From: a virus
Direction: 5' to 3' (one strand)
DNA: 64,000 bases
Virus record (IMG/VR): IMGVR_UViG_3300022602_000039
Location: 62,001 to 126,000 of that record
The notes beneath the pieces are model-generated. The model was not told where the DNA came from, did not search any database, and worked only from the letters and a program-made list of their open reading frames with translations. Below are positions 2,561 to 48,910 of this stretch, piece after piece. Position 1 is the stretch's first letter; every line of letters starts with the position of its first letter. The position numbers and the translations under genes were made by a program.

Positions 2561-3415
2561 ATGTTAACTCAATATGAAAAATGGCTCAAGGGCGCTGGAA
2601 AGAGTAACGCTAAAAGATATCAACAAAGATTAAACAATTACAACAATAATCCTAAATTATGTGCGTATTGCAAACATCCTTTAAGCTATGAATTGAGAAA
2701 TAACAAATACTGCGACCATACTTGTTCTGCTTCCTTTACGAATAAAAGTAGATCAGAGTCAGGATATAGTTTAAAAGGAAAAACAAAAGCATCTATTTGC
2801 ACTAAATGTAATAGTACTGTAGAAATAGGTTGTAATGCATCAGCTTTAAGAGCATTATGTACCAAATGTAAATTACAATATGTACGTAAACACTGTAAGC
2901 AATGTAAAAATATATTTTACGGTAGACCAAATAGAAAGACATGTAGTAATGAGTGTGCTAGTTTAGCAAAACGTATAGGGGCTATTAATGGAGGTAAAAA
3001 ATCTGCTGCTATACAATCTCAAATAAGAAGAAGCAAAAATGAAATATATTTTGCTGAACTTTGTAAATTACATTTTACAAATGTTTTAACAAATGAACCT
3101 TTGTTTAACGGTTGGGATGCTGATATTATATTGCCTGATTTTAAAATAGCTATAATGTGGAACGGTGCTTGGCATTATAAACAAATAACAAAAAAGCATT
3201 CTGTAGAACAGGTACAAAATAGAGACAAAATAAAAATAAAAGAAATCGAACAGGCAGGTTATACATCTTATGTAATAAAAGATCTAGGCATTGAAAATAA
3301 AAAATTTGTCATTAATCAATTTAATAAGTTTCTTAAAAATATGGCGGGAGTGGGAATTGAACCCAACGCGCTCTTTCGAGCTGATGCTTATGAGACATCC
3401 GACTTTGTCCTCTAG
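2561..3415 (+). CDS. Homing endonuclease, Vsr/EDxHD-like PD-(D/E)xK nuclease with zinc ribbons
   Basis: 284 residues from the ATG at 2561. The frame is open back to 2453, but that part is low-complexity hydrophobic sequence over a hairpin, so I prefer 2561. Residues about 20-135 hold Cys pairs (CAYC, CDHTC, CTKC, CKQC, CSNEC) typical of zinc-finger DNA-binding modules. The C-terminal 100 residues, with WDADIILPDFKIAIMWNG and AWHYKQ, look like the restriction-fold nuclease of EDxHD/Vsr-like homing enzymes. Codon usage is very AT-rich compared with neighbours. The last 24 codons are antisense to a tRNA gene (3342-3426), which suggests insertion next to or into tRNA DNA. Confidence 0.8.
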   Translation: MLTQYEKWLKGAGKSNAKRYQQRLNNYNNNPKLCAYCKHPLSYELRNNKYCDHTCSASFTNKSRSESGYSLKGKTKASICTKCNSTVEIGCNASALRALCTKCKLQYVRKHCKQCKNIFYGRPNRKTCSNECASLAKRIGAINGGKKSAAIQSQIRRSKNEIYFAELCKLHFTNVLTNEPLFNGWDADIILPDFKIAIMWNGAWHYKQITKKHSVEQVQNRDKIKIKEIEQAGYTSYVIKDLGIENKKFVINQFNKFLKNMAGVGIEPNALFRADAYETSDFVL

Positions 3416-3426
3416 TCTATCCCGCG
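3342..3426 (-). tRNA. Class II tRNA with CAU anticodon (tRNA-Met-like, atypical)
   Basis: Acceptor GCGGGA/TCCCGC; D-stem GACT/AGTC with a GG-containing loop; anticodon stem GATGT/GCATC with loop CTCATAA (CAU); long variable arm GCTC-GAAA-GAGC; T-loop TTCAATT with a T-C mismatch at the stem base. C1 faces C72 unpaired, as in initiator tRNAs. No full CCA is encoded, unlike the other tRNAs here. CAU with a long variable arm is not a normal combination. It overlaps the 3' end of the endonuclease gene on the other strand. It may be a decayed or repurposed Leu/Ser-type tRNA. Confidence 0.65.
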
Positions 3427-3436
3427 ATAAAAATTT

Positions 3437-3501
3437 GTAAGTTCCTTTGTCCTAAAAACTTGAAGCGTCCTTCATTATGTATTAGTTTTGTACGAACTTA
3501 C
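3437..3501. other. Structured hairpin between tRNAs
   Basis: GTAAGTTC 3437-3444 pairs with GAACTTAC 3494-3501. Inside, AAAACT 3455-3460 pairs with AGTTTT 3484-3489 and GAAG 3462-3465 with CTTC 3470-3473. No tRNA fold fits. It could be a processing signal or a decayed tRNA. The rest of 3502-3568 shows only a 10-bp palindrome, GAACCGGTTC. Confidence 0.4.
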
Positions 3502-3568
3502 GACGAACCGGTTCCATACATACAACCTTTCGAACAGCTGTAGAGAGGGTTTTGCCGATTTCTGTAAT

Positions 3569-3643
3569 TGGCACGCCGGGTGGGTAACGCTCCCACATAG
3601 GGCAGTTTTGGAGACTGCTGCATTTCTTGTCTGCCACCGACGC
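3569..3643 (-). tRNA. tRNA-Trp (CCA)-like with aberrant D- and T-loops
   Basis: Acceptor GCGTCGG/CCGGCGT (two G-U), anticodon stem GCAGT/ACTGC with loop CTCCAAA (anticodon CCA), five-nt variable loop, T-stem GTGGG/CCCAC, discriminator G and encoded CCA, 75 nt in all. The stems are intact, but the T-loop is AGCGTTA instead of TTCRANN, and the D-loop GACAAGAAA lacks the GG pair. The usual G18-Psi55 and G19-C56 elbow contacts therefore cannot form. Confidence 0.7.
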
Positions 3644-3665
3644 ATAAATTGTAAAAAGATCAAAT

Positions 3666-3741
3666 TGGAGCCCAGTGTCGGGCTCGAACCGACCACCTGC
3701 TGATTACAAATCAGCTGCTCTACCAAATGAGCTAACCGGGC
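3666..3741 (-). tRNA. tRNA-Thr (UGU)
   Basis: Acceptor GCCCGGT/ACTGGGC, D-arm GCTC/GAGC, anticodon arm GCTGA/TCAGC with loop TTTGTAA (UGU), T-loop TTCGAGC, CCA encoded. 76 nt, canonical. Confidence 0.97.
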
Positions 3742-3787
3742 GTTAATTTATTTATCTATATTAATACCTAGTACCGGAATGGGCAAG

Positions 3788-4150
3788 CTATTTTTCGTAG
3801 TGTTCTTCTTTTAATTTAGCATTCCAAATCTTTGCATCTTCTATAGAGTTTGGATTAATGTTTTTATAATCACCAAGATGACCGATTAGTAAATGACAGA
3901 TAATTCCGTAGCTTGTACTCTCACACAATGTTACAAGATTGTTCGGATCGAGTTCTAATTCTGGATGAAGATGGAATGGTTTAATATGATGTACATTTAA
4001 CTGATGGGTATCACCACATACAACGCATTTTGGATTATTCTTTAAATGTTCTTTACGAACTTTTGCCCATTCGTTAGAACGCTTTGGTCCGCCATTAGGA
4101 ATTTTACCCTTAGCGACATCTAATGCATGATTTAAACGTGTGGAAGCCAT
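3788..4150 (-). CDS. HNH endonuclease
   Basis: 120 residues. The HNH core is CVVCG at about 42-46, then VHHIKPFHLHPELELDPNN and LVTLC, that is the paired CxxC, HH, N and C pattern of HNH nucleases of the ICEA/McrA type. It stands between two tRNA genes, a usual site for free-standing homing endonucleases, but could also be a housekeeping phage nuclease. A TAAGTA box lies 6 nt before the start. No Shine-Dalgarno sequence is visible. Confidence 0.9.
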   Translation of the reverse strand: MASTRLNHALDVAKGKIPNGGPKRSNEWAKVRKEHLKNNPKCVVCGDTHQLNVHHIKPFHLHPELELDPNNLVTLCESTSYGIICHLLIGHLGDYKNINPNSIEDAKIWNAKLKEEHYEK

Positions 4151-4168: not shown

Positions 4169-4244
4169 TGGTGGAGGATATCGGGCTCGAACCGATCACC
4201 TATAGCTTGCAAAGCTACCGCTCTACCAGATGAGCTAATCCCCC
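4169..4244 (-). tRNA. tRNA-Ala (UGC)
   Basis: Acceptor GGGGGAT/ATCCTCC, D-stem GCTC/GAGC, anticodon stem GTAGC/GCTAT with loop TTTGCAA (UGC), T-loop TTCGAGC, CCA encoded. 76 nt. Only 11 nt separate it from the 3' end of the tmRNA. Confidence 0.97.
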
Positions 4245-4255
4245 GTAATATAAAA

Positions 4256-4702
4256 TGGTGGAGACGACGGGAATCGAACCCGTGTGTTTATACTGTTCTA
4301 TTTATACTTCTACACGCTTAGATAAACTTCGTACTTTCGTTGACTCCAGGTAACAAGGCGTTATCAACCTATCTATGTTTATAGTCCTACCTATGCAGAT
4401 GAAGAGTCCTGCACGACCCCTTGCACTCAGTTTTCTAAGAATCACAAGACCTTCTAAACCTATTTTTATTTCCAAAAGCTTTAATAGGATTATCTTTTGG
4501 TTCCTTAGGCAGCTAGAAGTGCTGGCTCTTCAAAGCTGGCGAGGATTTCGTCAGCGTTCTCGAGACAATACAATGCTTCCGCAAGGATGGCGTCAGAGTT
4601 ATCTTCTGCGTTTAGTTTTTTAATCAGCTTTTATAGTGGCCAACTGATTAACCACTGCGTGCCGCATAAACTTCGAGTATAAGTCGAAGCCATTACGTCC
4701 CC
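4256..4702 (-). ncRNA. ssrA: tmRNA (transfer-messenger RNA) with a 34-codon tag
   Basis: A one-piece tmRNA of 447 nt. The acceptor is GGGGACG (4702-4696) with CGTCTCC, then ACCA at the 3' end. The T-arm is ACGGG/CCCGT with loop TTCGATT. Pseudoknot PK1 is readable: AGTGG 4656-4652 with CCACT 4639-4635, and TAATCAG 4650-4644 with CTGATTA 4627-4621. The tag frame opens at GCA 4609 and stops at TAA 4507-4505. It begins AEDNSDAILA and ends EEPALLAA. The end ALLAA fits proteolysis tags. Thirty-four residues is long against the usual 10-27. The tag carries two related blocks, NSDAILAEAL and NADEILASFE. The tmRNA rescues stalled ribosomes with host SmpB. Confidence 0.95.
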
Positions 4703-44214: not shown

Positions 44215-45309
44215 TCAAGCATTATTAAGTATGTTTCTGCTTAGAGTTAATAATTTTTGTATCTCTTCCTTAATATGATATTTTGTACATGCATAGTCAT
44301 AACATGCTTTTGTATTAAAGTTGTACTGTGTTATTGCAGATGCGAGTTCATCGATATTATTTGAGCAAAACCCTACTGCCGGATATTCTACAAGCTCCTG
44401 TACAGCACCATATGTTGAGCCTATTACGGGTGTTCCTTTTGATAGTGCTTCTATATTTGTTCTACCAAATGCTTCAGATGTTTTTGTAAGCATTGCAAAA
44501 AGTTTAGCGTTTTTGAATGCATCAATGTGTTCTTTACCTCGATGAAGGGCTCCTTTAAATTCAAAATTAGATATTGTTTTAGATAAATTAGTAAGCTCAT
44601 ATGCTAGGCTATCATCACCGGATCCATAAGCTATAAATTGCTCGGTAGGTAACCTCTTTGCTAATTCAATAAAGACATCAAGGCCTTTACCTTCATATCC
44701 CCATCCTAAACCTGCTACCCACAAGATATAATCTTGTTTATTTTCCTGAAAATCAAATTCTGAATCATCTAGGCCTACATGAAACCACGTACTACGCTCT
44801 TTTACACTAGCTATTGTATAATTGCTTGCAGCATCTTTAAACGTTAAATCATATATAAATTTTGAAATAAATCTATACGTTATATTATGGTGTGCTATAA
44901 ATTTATGGTTTTCCCAGGGGCCAGAATCTTGCATTGTTGTTATAACAGGAATATTAAGATCTTTTAAAATGAGTGCAGACCAATGTCCAACAGACCAAAT
45001 TATATCAGGCTTTATATCAGAAGCCTTAATAATGTCCATAGCAGCTGCAGCAAAATTTGTAGGGTATATATTTGATATATTCATAGGAATATATTCGGTT
45101 TCAATTATATTAAACCCGTATGTGTTGGTTAATTCTCTTTGCTCTGAGATCTTAGGAACAATAACAGTAAACGATACAGTATCTCTAAAATGTCTGTGTA
45201 GGCCTTTGCATAAATTTTCTATGGAAGCTTCGATACCGCCATACCCGGTGTTTGGAAACTGCTGATAATTACAGCTACCAATAATACATACTTTGAGTTT
45301 ATCGTTCAT
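44215..45309 (-). CDS. Glycosyltransferase family 4-like
   Basis: 364 residues, two Rossmann halves. Start VCIIGSCNYQQFPNTGYGG, C-terminal ILWVAGLGWGYEGKGLDVFI and the E-x7-E pattern in EAFGRTNIEALSKGTPVIGS are GT4 (GT-B) signatures. It would transfer a sugar from a nucleotide donor. It is the last gene of a block of overlapping sugar genes from 53402 and overlaps the exostosin-like gene by 11 nt. Confidence 0.85.
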   Translation of the reverse strand: MNDKLKVCIIGSCNYQQFPNTGYGGIEASIENLCKGLHRHFRDTVSFTVIVPKISEQRELTNTYGFNIIETEYIPMNISNIYPTNFAAAAMDIIKASDIKPDIIWSVGHWSALILKDLNIPVITTMQDSGPWENHKFIAHHNITYRFISKFIYDLTFKDAASNYTIASVKERSTWFHVGLDDSEFDFQENKQDYILWVAGLGWGYEGKGLDVFIELAKRLPTEQFIAYGSGDDSLAYELTNLSKTISNFEFKGALHRGKEHIDAFKNAKLFAMLTKTSEAFGRTNIEALSKGTPVIGSTYGAVQELVEYPAVGFCSNNIDELASAITQYNFNTKACYDYACTKYHIKEEIQKLLTLSRNILNNA

Positions 45310-46093
45310 ATCTATTGATGATGTTATTCCAGTAATTTATAGATAGCATATCAGAGCCATCAGAAGGCAGATGATAATTATCTAAAAGCTCTTGAGTCAG
45401 GTCATTAAAATCATCAACTTGAATAATTGGGAGTTTCCAATCATTATATATGTAATTTTTTATTACAATCGGTATGCAACCTACATATAATGCTTCCCAC
45501 GTACGGTGACAATCAATACCGTTACCCGGTGGTGATATTACAAATTTATGTTGTGACATTTTAGTAATATATTCATTAAACGGTACATTAGTATCGTGTG
45601 TAAATTTTATTTCTTTGTCTTTAAGAGTTGATATAATATTATTTCTAGATATATTTGTATTATTCCAATTGCAATATATATTACCTATCTTAGGTATTGA
45701 CCTCAATGTGTTAATATTTTCCGCAAACCAGTTAGTCATATATTGCGGTTCATAATAAGGATCAGCATGCGTTTTAACTCCGAGAGGTAGTGCAATTAAA
45801 TCGGTATGTACAACTGTTGGATTAATAGCATACCATTTTTTAATACAACTTGGTTTCTTATTCCATCGCTCAGCGTCAATTGGATAATCACTATGATGTG
45901 TTACTAAAATATATTCATTATTTGAATGTTTAATTTGATCAAACAAGTAATCAATAAAATCTGTTTTGCAAAAGATAGTAGCATTACGTGCTAGCAAATC
46001 CGGTGTTACGTACTTACCGTACGGTGGTATTACAGAAAAATGACAAATGCTTTCATAATTATATGCATTTAAAACATTTTTTATGTTGTACAC
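45299..46093 (-). CDS. Exostosin-like glycosyltransferase
   Basis: 264 residues. MSQHKFVISPPGNGIDCHRT, WEALYVGCIPIVIKN and the following acidic segment fit the GT47/exostosin-type C-terminal domain. It is shorter than eukaryotic exostosins, but such short forms are common in bacteria and phages. Donor and acceptor are unknown. Confidence 0.8.
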   Translation of the reverse strand: MYNIKNVLNAYNYESICHFSVIPPYGKYVTPDLLARNATIFCKTDFIDYLFDQIKHSNNEYILVTHHSDYPIDAERWNKKPSCIKKWYAINPTVVHTDLIALPLGVKTHADPYYEPQYMTNWFAENINTLRSIPKIGNIYCNWNNTNISRNNIISTLKDKEIKFTHDTNVPFNEYITKMSQHKFVISPPGNGIDCHRTWEALYVGCIPIVIKNYIYNDWKLPIIQVDDFNDLTQELLDNYHLPSDGSDMLSINYWNNIINRYER

Positions 46094-46097
46094 GACA

Positions 46098-46661
46098 TTA
46101 TTCGAGTACTACTAATCCAGTACCGCTCCAGTGACCAAGATGTGTTAGATCATATTTTGGTTCATTAATTTTATTCCAAAAATCTTTCATTGGATCATTT
46201 AAGTGTATATCATCTAATAGAAGTAATCCCTTATAGTTTATACTTAAAAGATGATTATAGAAAATATTTTCATATGACCCATCGTGATCTACATCGAGAA
46301 AGATTATTGGTGATGTAATAAGATCAGAGTCTTGTGTTGAATCACCAAGATAGTACTCAACATTTTCAAGTACAGGATTTTGTGGTAATATTTTTATAAT
46401 ATCGTATGATTTAACTCTATTGGTTTTATTATACGCTAGCGATATTGCTGAGCGACACTCGTTTGTACCAATATCAAATATAATTTGGTTGTCTATAAAT
46501 GTCGATATCATCATAAGCAGTTTGTAATGCTCACGACCGCTATGTGTTCTTAAATGATAGTACGACGAATCAAAATTAATAAGCTCATCAATATAAGATG
46601 TATCTAAATTATCTATATCGCTATTTTTTAGATTAGTTATTTTTTCAATTAATGTATTCAT
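46098..46661 (-). CDS. Class I SAM-dependent methyltransferase-like
   Basis: 187 residues from ATG 46661, which overlaps the upstream stop as ATGA; an earlier ATG at 46718 would run 60 nt into that gene. SAM-binding motif FDIGTNECRSAISLAY at about 60-75, then IIFLDVDHDGSYEN and LLLLDDIHLND, a beta-hairpin of sugar- or cephalosporin-type methyltransferases (MT24 class). It is probably an O-methyltransferase of the sugar cluster. Confidence 0.7.
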   Translation of the reverse strand: MNTLIEKITNLKNSDIDNLDTSYIDELINFDSSYYHLRTHSGREHYKLLMMISTFIDNQIIFDIGTNECRSAISLAYNKTNRVKSYDIIKILPQNPVLENVEYYLGDSTQDSDLITSPIIFLDVDHDGSYENIFYNHLLSINYKGLLLLDDIHLNDPMKDFWNKINEPKYDLTHLGHWSGTGLVVLE

Positions 46662-47419
46662 ATTGTTGTAATTCCTGTACCGTTCATGTTCATGTGTTGA
46701 TGTGAGTATGCATCCCATTCGTGAATGACGTTCATTTGCTTCAATGGTAGATTACACGACGTCAAATAAAATCCCCACATTCTTTCAACTAAACCACATA
46801 ACCGATGTGGACAATGATTCATAATACCCCATCTATTAGATTTTAATATATCTTCAATATCCTCATGATAGGTATAAAGAAAATTTGCAAATTTATTAAA
46901 CACAGCAATCGGTGTCACACTTAACGCTTCGCTTATCCACGTACCACCCCAAATACGGTTGCTATCAATAACCATATCTAAGCGCTCACTCATAAACTTG
47001 CATATTTCATCAACTTCATTTCTTAAAAATGATAATTGTTCATATGTTCTCATTTTTTGATAAAAAATTATATTAGGATCTTCTTCAAGCTCAAGTCGCA
47101 TATCATTAATAGCATTTGAGTTAAATTTAACATCATAATGCATAATGCCAACATGTGTAGTGTTTTGTAGTAGTTCTGGGTTTTTTAATAAATGAACCAT
47201 ACTACCATATTCATAATATTGCTTTGATTGATAGCTATAATCATTCCACGGAAGTTCCCATTCATTAATTGTTTGTTTTATCTGCTGCGTAATATCCTTT
47301 GCTATCTTCTTTTGTACACAGTAGCATGTAATAGCATTTAATTCATCATAATCCAATTCGTTAACGACTCTATCAAGAAGACGGTCGTATGTTACAAGGA
47401 ATATATTAATATTAACCAT
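46658..47419 (-). CDS. Glycosyltransferase-like protein (DUF4422-like candidate)
   Basis: 253 residues from ATG 47419, one base after the previous stop. Start INIFLVTYDRLLDRVVNELD, middle NTTHVGIMHYDVKFN and RIWGGTWISEALSVTPI. The H-x-D and W-containing segments recall GT-A folds with low similarity to known families. The neighbours support a sugar role. I cannot see a clear DxD donor motif. Confidence 0.5.
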   Translation of the reverse strand: MVNINIFLVTYDRLLDRVVNELDYDELNAITCYCVQKKIAKDITQQIKQTINEWELPWNDYSYQSKQYYEYGSMVHLLKNPELLQNTTHVGIMHYDVKFNSNAINDMRLELEEDPNIIFYQKMRTYEQLSFLRNEVDEICKFMSERLDMVIDSNRIWGGTWISEALSVTPIAVFNKFANFLYTYHEDIEDILKSNRWGIMNHCPHRLCGLVERMWGFYLTSCNLPLKQMNVIHEWDAYSHQHMNMNGTGITTI

Positions 47420-47420
47420 A

Positions 47421-47960
47421 TTAACGTAAGACTTGTATGACGAACGTAGGGCATCCATCGCGTGTTAATGCAACAATACGCTGGCCGTAGCTACGACAGA
47501 AATAATCAACTGCTGCAGCAATTTGCGTATTTAAAATATAATCATGCCCAGCTAAAATACCGCCAACTTTTATTTTCTGAAAAGATAACTTAAGATCTGA
47601 TAAAACAGCTTCATAAGAATGGTCTGCGTCAACATATATCATGTCGAGACTATTATCCTCCTGAGCTTCTAAGAACGCTGTACTAGTACTACGTATAATT
47701 TTAACATTTGTTGTATTGTTATATTTTTCTACAAGGCCGTTGTATACAGCCTCCATATCATTAACAGTAATATGATTATTACCGTCTTTATCCCCTGATC
47801 CGTAACTACCTTCCCAAATATCTACAAGAGTGAGCTGATTCGGTGACATTCGATTATATAATTCTTCTGCAAATTCGCCTTTAAAGACACCAAGCTCAAC
47901 AATATTGAGATTCTTAGGAAGCGCTTCAATTAAATCATTTCGTGTTTCAAATATTTTCAT
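47421..47960 (-). CDS. Class I SAM-dependent methyltransferase (MT24/TylF-like)
   Basis: 179 residues. IVELGVFKGEFAEELYN (motif I), LTLVDIWEG, SLDMIYVDADHSYEAVLSDL and LAGHDY are the signatures of small-sugar and macrolide-type O-methyltransferases. It is a second methyltransferase in the sugar block and probably modifies a glycan hydroxyl. Confidence 0.85.
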   Translation of the reverse strand: MKIFETRNDLIEALPKNLNIVELGVFKGEFAEELYNRMSPNQLTLVDIWEGSYGSGDKDGNNHITVNDMEAVYNGLVEKYNNTTNVKIIRSTSTAFLEAQEDNSLDMIYVDADHSYEAVLSDLKLSFQKIKVGGILAGHDYILNTQIAAAVDYFCRSYGQRIVALTRDGCPTFVIQVLR

Positions 47961-47962
47961 AA

Positions 47963-48910
47963 TTAATTTTTAATAAAGACCTTGTTAAATTTTTGTATTA
48001 CTTTTTCAGGTAAGAATTCATTTAATGTAGGGTATGATATATTATATGAGCTAAAATTCATAATTATACTATAAAGTTCATCTTCATCTTTATAATATAA
48101 ACCATCTGCACCTAATAAACTGTAGTGGTTTTTCTCTTCAGATTGACTGTATGTAATTACAGGTTTATTTTTGCTCATGAATTCGAGTACTGTAAGACCA
48201 AACGTTTCACCGCGCATACGTGCATGCAATAATGCGTCACATGTATTAATAAACATTACTTTATTCATTAATGACGCTGTTCCGTTTGTAAAAATAACTC
48301 TCGGATGATCAATAAACTTGTATGTATTACAGAAAATAAAATATATGTTTGGATTTGTATTTATAACGTTATTAATAACATTTGCAGCAAACGGTATATC
48401 AAACGTCTCTAAACCACCGTACCTACCAAATACAATTGCATCCTTTGGTATATTTAACGCTGTACGATAATTGTCATCTGTAATAGGTAGGTTAACCATA
48501 TGCGGTACATACGGTAATGACCCGTTGCTACAATGATTGCTTAGCCATTCAGAAACATATGCATATACATCACCATGTTTTTCAGCTATACTACATGGAA
48601 ACACAGCATGCACCGCTGTCTTAACTCCCTTAGGTAATCTACCGTCATTATCGCCTGCCTTTATTGTATAAAATAAATCTACTTGTTCTTGTTTAACAAT
48701 GGTATCTAAATCGCTAAAATTATTATATGGCAGTAATTCAAACTCAGCTTTAAATTTTTTAATTACAGATAATTCGTTTTTATGGTCTGTGTTGTTATAA
48801 GATATACAACAATTATAATTAAAATTTTTCTTTAGAAAAAAAGCATAATCATAAAGTGCAACAGTTGTACCTCGTAAGCCAAGAAAATTATCGTGAAGAA
48901 TTATCTTCAT
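47963..48910 (-). CDS. Glycosyltransferase, GT-B type
   Basis: 315 residues. VFGRYGGLETFDIPFAANVI and RMRGETFGLTVLEFMSKNKP with VITY form the donor half of a GT4-like enzyme (E-x7-E). The acceptor half, LHDNFLGLRGTTVALYDYAF, is short. It overlaps its upstream neighbour by 4 nt. Confidence 0.8.
   Translation of the reverse strand: MKIILHDNFLGLRGTTVALYDYAFFLKKNFNYNCCISYNNTDHKNELSVIKKFKAEFELLPYNNFSDLDTIVKQEQVDLFYTIKAGDNDGRLPKGVKTAVHAVFPCSIAEKHGDVYAYVSEWLSNHCSNGSLPYVPHMVNLPITDDNYRTALNIPKDAIVFGRYGGLETFDIPFAANVINNVINTNPNIYFIFCNTYKFIDHPRVIFTNGTASLMNKVMFINTCDALLHARMRGETFGLTVLEFMSKNKPVITYSQSEEKNHYSLLGADGLYYKDEDELYSIIMNFSSYNISYPTLNEFLPEKVIQKFNKVFIKN

Follow-up and report, generated by a model that had tools for sequence, protein, structure and literature searches.

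Does this phage gene really encode a tmRNA with a tag of 34 codons, and what could so long a tag be for? The window, as we call the whole stretch of 64,000 nucleotides analysed here, belongs to a large freshwater phage, in an IMG/VR record of 130,033 bases that encodes virion structural proteins, a phage DNA helicase and a ribonucleotide reductase. An initial annotation had placed in it a tmRNA with PK1, canonical acceptor and T-arm, and a tag with two similar, seemingly duplicated acidic blocks and a degradation-type end. The kind of RNA is known but its message is new: we are dealing with a real, conserved and phage-restricted long-tag variant of tmRNA.

The gene (Table 1) is a complete one-piece tmRNA with encoded CCA. 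RF00023 aligns with it over the entire model (positions 1-374 of 374) with 111 bits and an E value of 1.6e-42 at a cut-off of 47, which makes the coordinates and strand given initially exact; in the relatives L007-L011 the score is 114.8 bits. From the combined scan that had been suggested only this Rfam part is positive, whereas ARAGORN calls no tmRNA at this place. The landmarks named initially are present. The acceptor GGGGACG/CGTCTCC forms seven of seven pairs including G3-U70, the alanine identity pair, and both G3-U70 and the full set of seven pairs are kept in 36/36 family members, with compensated changes such as GGGCGTG/CACGTCC. The PK1 stems of the window are AGTGGT/GCCACT and TAATCAGTT/AGCTGATTA, and the first stem (S1) occurs among 36 sequences in the compensatory variants AGTGG/CCACT, AGAGG/CCTCT, CGAGG/CCTCG and AGTAG/CTACT. 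From PK1 to the resume codon there are 11 nt in the window and 9-12 nt in nearly all family members; the exceptions are L372 with 15 nt, where the search had found a shorter second stem, and the most divergent pair L375/L376, in which PK1 was not convincingly placed. The region of PK2-PK4 is spanned by the RF00023 alignment but with low posterior and insertions, and some family members are without encoded CCA or show odd T-loops. The gene lies in a cluster of tRNA genes, with tRNA-Ala 11 nt downstream. An open reading frame of 82 aa (4375-4623, +), which overlaps the tag in antisense, is coincidental and regarded as spurious.

Table 1. Coordinates of the features discussed (positions refer to the window unless another stretch or record is named).
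Feature	Position	Strand	Evidence
tmRNA (ssrA) gene, 447 nt	4256..4702	(-)	RF00023 full length
Tag frame, 34 codons + UAA, AEDNSDAILAEALYCLENADEILASFEEPALLAA	4505..4609	(-)	family alignments, coding constraint
UAAAC directly 5' of resume codon	4610..4614	(-)	A at -4 in 91/91 family members
PK1, ending 11 nt before resume codon	4621..4656	(-)	compensatory stem changes over 36 sequences
Acceptor stem 5' strand GGGGACG	4696..4702	(-)	7/7 pairs, G3-U70
T-arm ACGGG-TTCGATT-CCCGT, acceptor 3' strand CGTCTCC and ACCA end	4256..4283	(-)	RF00023, pairing
tRNA-Ala (UGC), in tRNA cluster	4169..4244	(-)	ARAGORN and Rfam scans
HNH endonuclease	3788..4150	(-)	
Glycosyltransferases	44215..48910		
ClpC, 820 aa, same record, outside window	G000:C1:35195-37654 (L041:15192-17654)	(-)	
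APS kinase, same record	L041:5451-6005	(-)	
Sulfotransferase-like protein, same record	L042:11845-12663	(+)	
Intron-bearing tmRNA, L012	3477-4158		
Intron-bearing tmRNA, L015	~3298-3915	(-)	
Intron-bearing tmRNA, L377			
T-loop intron locus, L505	1343-1577		

Typical short ssrA tags mostly comprise 8-27 aa. Here, translation from the resume codon GCA at 4609 gives 34 residues (codons 4609-4508, stop 4507-4505), and 78 relatives have 32-35, which confirms the frame proposed initially and its unusual length. In 99 ARAGORN-called tmRNAs from IMG/VR, a set for comparison only since it was picked by a generic 5' pattern and is biased to ordinary tmRNAs, the tags measure 8-31 aa with a mode of 10, and 10 aa is also the commonest length in the tmRNA database (PMC11915505).

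This length depends on the choice of the resume codon. If translation resumed at codon 11 (GAA), the first ten codons would stay untranslated and a tag of 24 residues (EAEYIFNN...LAA) would result. ARAGORN, which finds 34 of the 91 family loci, in most of them starts the tag exactly there, i.e. ten codons late, and in many relatives codon 11 is preceded by a UAG(C)U-like context. In the window, however, this context reads UUGCG and has no A at -4. In the tmRNA of E. coli the distance from PK1 to the resume codon is 12 nt and the critical base is A86 at -4, investigated together with U85 (PMC2481249); UAGUC of E. coli and UAAAC of the window occupy the equivalent position and have this critical A in common. 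It is missing at 23 of 85 late sites, that of the window among them, but at none of the 91 early ones, and the late site lies ~40 nt from PK1 as compared with ~10 nt for the early one. Moreover, codons 2-10 show a pN/pS of 0.30 in the tag frame versus 1.04 and 1.89 in the other two frames. A late start is hence very improbable, and on this comparative evidence the long frame stands. It survives both objections foreseen in the initial annotation, a later resume codon and a frame artefact, the latter being rejected because relatives keep the frame and the coding constraint acts at the peptide level. As ARAGORN overlooks most of these genes or gives their tags a wrong start, annotations based on it would lack them or show incorrect tags.

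A scan with a tag profile detected 103 IMG/VR stretches that encode relatives of the tag. Among the best 80 of the 103 loci 78 could be parsed; they contain 47 distinct tags of 32-35 aa, with the end LAA in 71 of the 78, and all 20 relatives tested match RF00023. The scan demanded residues 11-18, so conservation at these positions is partly due to selection of the sequences, but with exactly these residues left out the family pN/pS is 0.26 compared with 0.92 for shuffled columns. Positions 19-23 and 33-35, which were free in the search pattern, are conserved, whereas 24-26 and 31-32 are variable. Relatives reached via a neighbouring gene or via DNA outside the tag keep the long tag as well. 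Between the window and L007 the tag differs by two synonymous and no replacement changes; in another group L019 and L015 share the 35 residues AKTKVSAILAKVKKAANTITEFCLCDEMAPLAIAA with seven synonymous and no replacement differences, and more distant phages have clearly homologous tags of 33-35 aa. The comparison of related phages that had been called for thus reveals a long tag that changes mainly synonymously, a pattern pointing to selection on the peptide itself.

In the collections covered the tag is restricted to phages. The same profile gave 41 pattern matches in 84,980 bacterial and archaeal species genomes, none of which was confirmed. With the low-complexity filter on, blastn and tblastn of 50,697 phage records returned no full-length relative of the tmRNA and none of the tag, and tblastn of known plasmids was blank, though close records may be lacking in the sets searched by tblastn. 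A scan of neighbouring genes for a host or prophage found none, annotated phage proteins are at best distantly related, matches of the tag to solved proteins are at chance level (E 3.2 and up) and no description of this tag family was found in the literature searched. Phage tmRNAs as such are well documented, with 402 cases in 18,146 phage genomes (PMC9004378) and 79 unique sequences (PMC11915505). Those of Bacillus phage G and the mycobacteriophages, like the one described here, are carried by the phage and probably use the host SmpB. Conserved in more than 100 phage contigs and not detected in the bacterial genomes of the set covered, the tag gives the impression of a signal that phages have made for a purpose of their own, in accordance with the phage-specific signal considered in the initial annotation.

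Tags of type 1 follow the order A-E-D-N-T-S-D-L-L-A-E-A-E-Y-I-F-N-N-A-D-E-F-L, then a segment in which both sequence and length vary and positions 27-29 are acidic, and finally LAA. The conserved module (consensus AEDNTSDLLAEAEYIFNNADEFL) is acidic and predicted to be helical; for the 34-residue peptide AlphaFold (9 rows) proposes helices at 5-17 and 19-26 with a mean pLDDT of 81.5, which is suggestive only. The acidic blocks DNSDAILA and ENADEILA had looked as if duplicated. In the window their likeness reaches p=0.017, but in relatives p ranges from 0.06 to 0.94, and internal duplication is not supported since the repeat is not kept. The supposed degradation-type end was borne out as LAA-type. 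A few tags terminate in LEA or ELV, which are poor ends for ClpX, so degradation may not be universal.

Compared with the bacterial one-piece tmRNA (RF00023), the likeness comprises the covariance match, the G3-U70 acceptor, PK1, the resume context and the LAA-type end; the modal tag of the former has 10 aa, in contrast with 32-35 aa in the phage family, where the conserved acidic helical module is inserted between resume codon and LAA. The E. coli tag AANDENYALAA, on which SspB and ClpX act (PMC3985003), also combines an upstream docking part with a C-terminal LAA. In the phage tags the presumed docking part appears to be larger (~23 residues) and acidic-helical, and the linker longer and variable. 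In Mycoplasma, Lon is reported to read an extended tmRNA tag (Gur and Sauer 2008; Ge and Karzai 2009, as cited in PMC11986505 and PMC3985003), a precedent for a long tag with multipartite contact to a particular protease. Mycoplasma tags end in AFA and belong to hosts without ClpXP, while the phage tag ends in LAA and was found only in phages.

Taken together, the gene probably produces a working one-piece tmRNA that is run by host SmpB and appends a bipartite tag of the phage lineage's own, in which LAA-dependent degradation is combined with docking of the module. The sequences themselves show the gene, its fold, the resume point, the tag length, selection on the peptide, the pattern of module and terminus, a distribution restricted to phages in the sets covered and the lack of SmpB in phage records; from there we infer activity, the use of host SmpB, degradation and docking. 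No SmpB was detected in 36 related phage records, although the bacterial controls were, and the phage tmRNA, if it works, must therefore use that of the host. The host would charge it with alanine, and host SmpB together with EF-Tu would load it onto ribosomes stalled during infection. Resumption at GCA would then add 34 C-terminal residues, in the order acidic conserved helical module, variable acidic linker and an LAA end as read by ClpX/ClpA. Most likely the product would be degraded by a host Clp protease via LAA, whereas the module may dock on a second partner (an adaptor or protease subunit of host or phage) that would determine the destination of tagged proteins or how quickly they reach it. 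Docking module plus degron is the best reading by analogy with SspB/ClpX and the Mycoplasma Lon tag. More speculatively, and with some doubt, a separate tagging code may have evolved in large freshwater phages, with the 23-residue helical module docking on a dedicated adaptor or leading to a virus-specific destination; rescued unfinished proteins would then bear a viral instead of the host label during infection.

Other origins and functions of the tag have to be weighed against this reading. Bacterial-like phage tmRNAs are frequent (PMC9004378), and the gene might have been captured from a host whose own tmRNA bears the same long tag, but with 0 of 41 pattern matches confirmed in the 84,980 genomes this is hardly credible. 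The tag might also be mainly inert or protective, if the phage needed only ribosome release and the length slowed or avoided host degradation of phage proteins. The ends LEA or LELV of some family members would fit, yet the strong selection on the peptide and the prevalence of LAA (71/78) speak for a degron and against inert sequence, so we consider this explanation unlikely.

A dedicated phage pair, in which the long tag is read by a phage ClpC-type ATPase together with host ClpP, seems similarly improbable, even though the record carrying the tmRNA encodes a full-length ClpC, which made it the obvious candidate for the change of protease with tag length considered in the initial annotation. 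This protein of 820 aa has two Clp_N domains, UVR and both AAA domains, shows an MGF loop at the ClpP-docking position and scores 830 bits to ClpC of B. subtilis. In G005 and G006 a ClpC ~84% identical to it accompanies the same tag; in G015, G016 and G019 ClpC goes with related tags, but the latter three are no independent support because they were found through ClpC. When 22 records of 64-226 kb were selected by their tag, ClpC turned up in a single one (G171), which is why it is not the general partner of the tag and its coupling with the tag was rejected as a general rule; in the records G129, G146 and G098 (84, 64 and 112 kb) the tag is long but ClpC is lacking. Furthermore, ClpP is absent from 14 records; the record of the window has none, and an association of tmRNA and ClpC in large phages gave no clear link when set against an RNR-selected control. 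Since the phage records are fragments, gene absences carry little weight in short ones.

Close relatives exchange their tags. A second long type with 35 aa, a basic first half and the end ...LAIAA/LALAA occurs in L019, L015, L017, L018, L373 and L377, i.e. in phages whose tmRNA flanks resemble those of the window. Identity between the window and L373 is 0.92 across PK3-4 and 0.43 in the tag; for L007 and L019 the values are 0.92 and 0.44. Within one lineage an acidic tag (charge -9) has been exchanged for a basic-to-neutral one (+2), and according to these comparisons the tag cassettes recombine independently of the structural parts. The swap of the acidic module for the basic one (AKTKVSAILAKVKKAANTITEFC...) would be a switch of partner. 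In phages we have a tag family of about three times the usual length that is selected as peptide and was not found in bacteria in the sets searched. It opens to testing the question whether a phage tmRNA serves ribosome release only or controls the fate of the tagged protein, and it offers a natural test case for the way in which AAA+ proteases are directed by the length of a tag and by a docking module upstream.

Some further tags differ from this scheme. In L375 and L376 (records G102 and G098), which belong to helicase-related phages, the acidic tag of 33 aa AEDTFDMAMSLEEADAILAAANFEDSTATLELV ends in LELV and not in LAA. In other large viral records with Clp-type ATPases there are tmRNAs whose tags also seem to be long (~20-26 aa, e.g. 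GNNSTHIFNQYPLVGNTQTQYAVAA) and have other C-terminal ends (L348, L349, L352, L353, L355, L358-L361 from records G020, G032, G054, G043, G058, G033, G057, G046 and G041).

The T-loop of these tmRNAs is variable too. In several relatives (Table 1) it is interrupted by a group I intron, which is inserted behind GGGTTCGAU at what is known as the main subsite (position 7 of PMC11915505) and measures 206 nt in L012, L015 and L377. L012 corresponds to the L007 tmRNA plus the intron, a presence/absence polymorphism in one phage lineage. Many long-tag tmRNAs replace UUCRANU by non-canonical T-loops, either of 8 nt (UAUCGUAU/G/A on an ACGGC- or UCGGC-type stem; UAUCGUAU-like loops in L504, L506, L516, L517, L519, L521, L528, L531, L535, L536 and others) or GGCAGAU/A (GGCAGA in L463, L481 and L511). 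Such odd alleles possibly confer immunity, either against the T-loop intron or against integration. Adjoining the window tmRNA, between tRNA-Ala and tRNA-Thr, an HNH endonuclease is encoded, perhaps a free-standing homing enzyme with a link to the intron that relatives carry in their tmRNA. Finally, genes for an APS kinase and for a sulfotransferase-like protein lie in the record of the window; sulfation of surface or virion sugars is a possible role, and the window contains glycosyltransferases.
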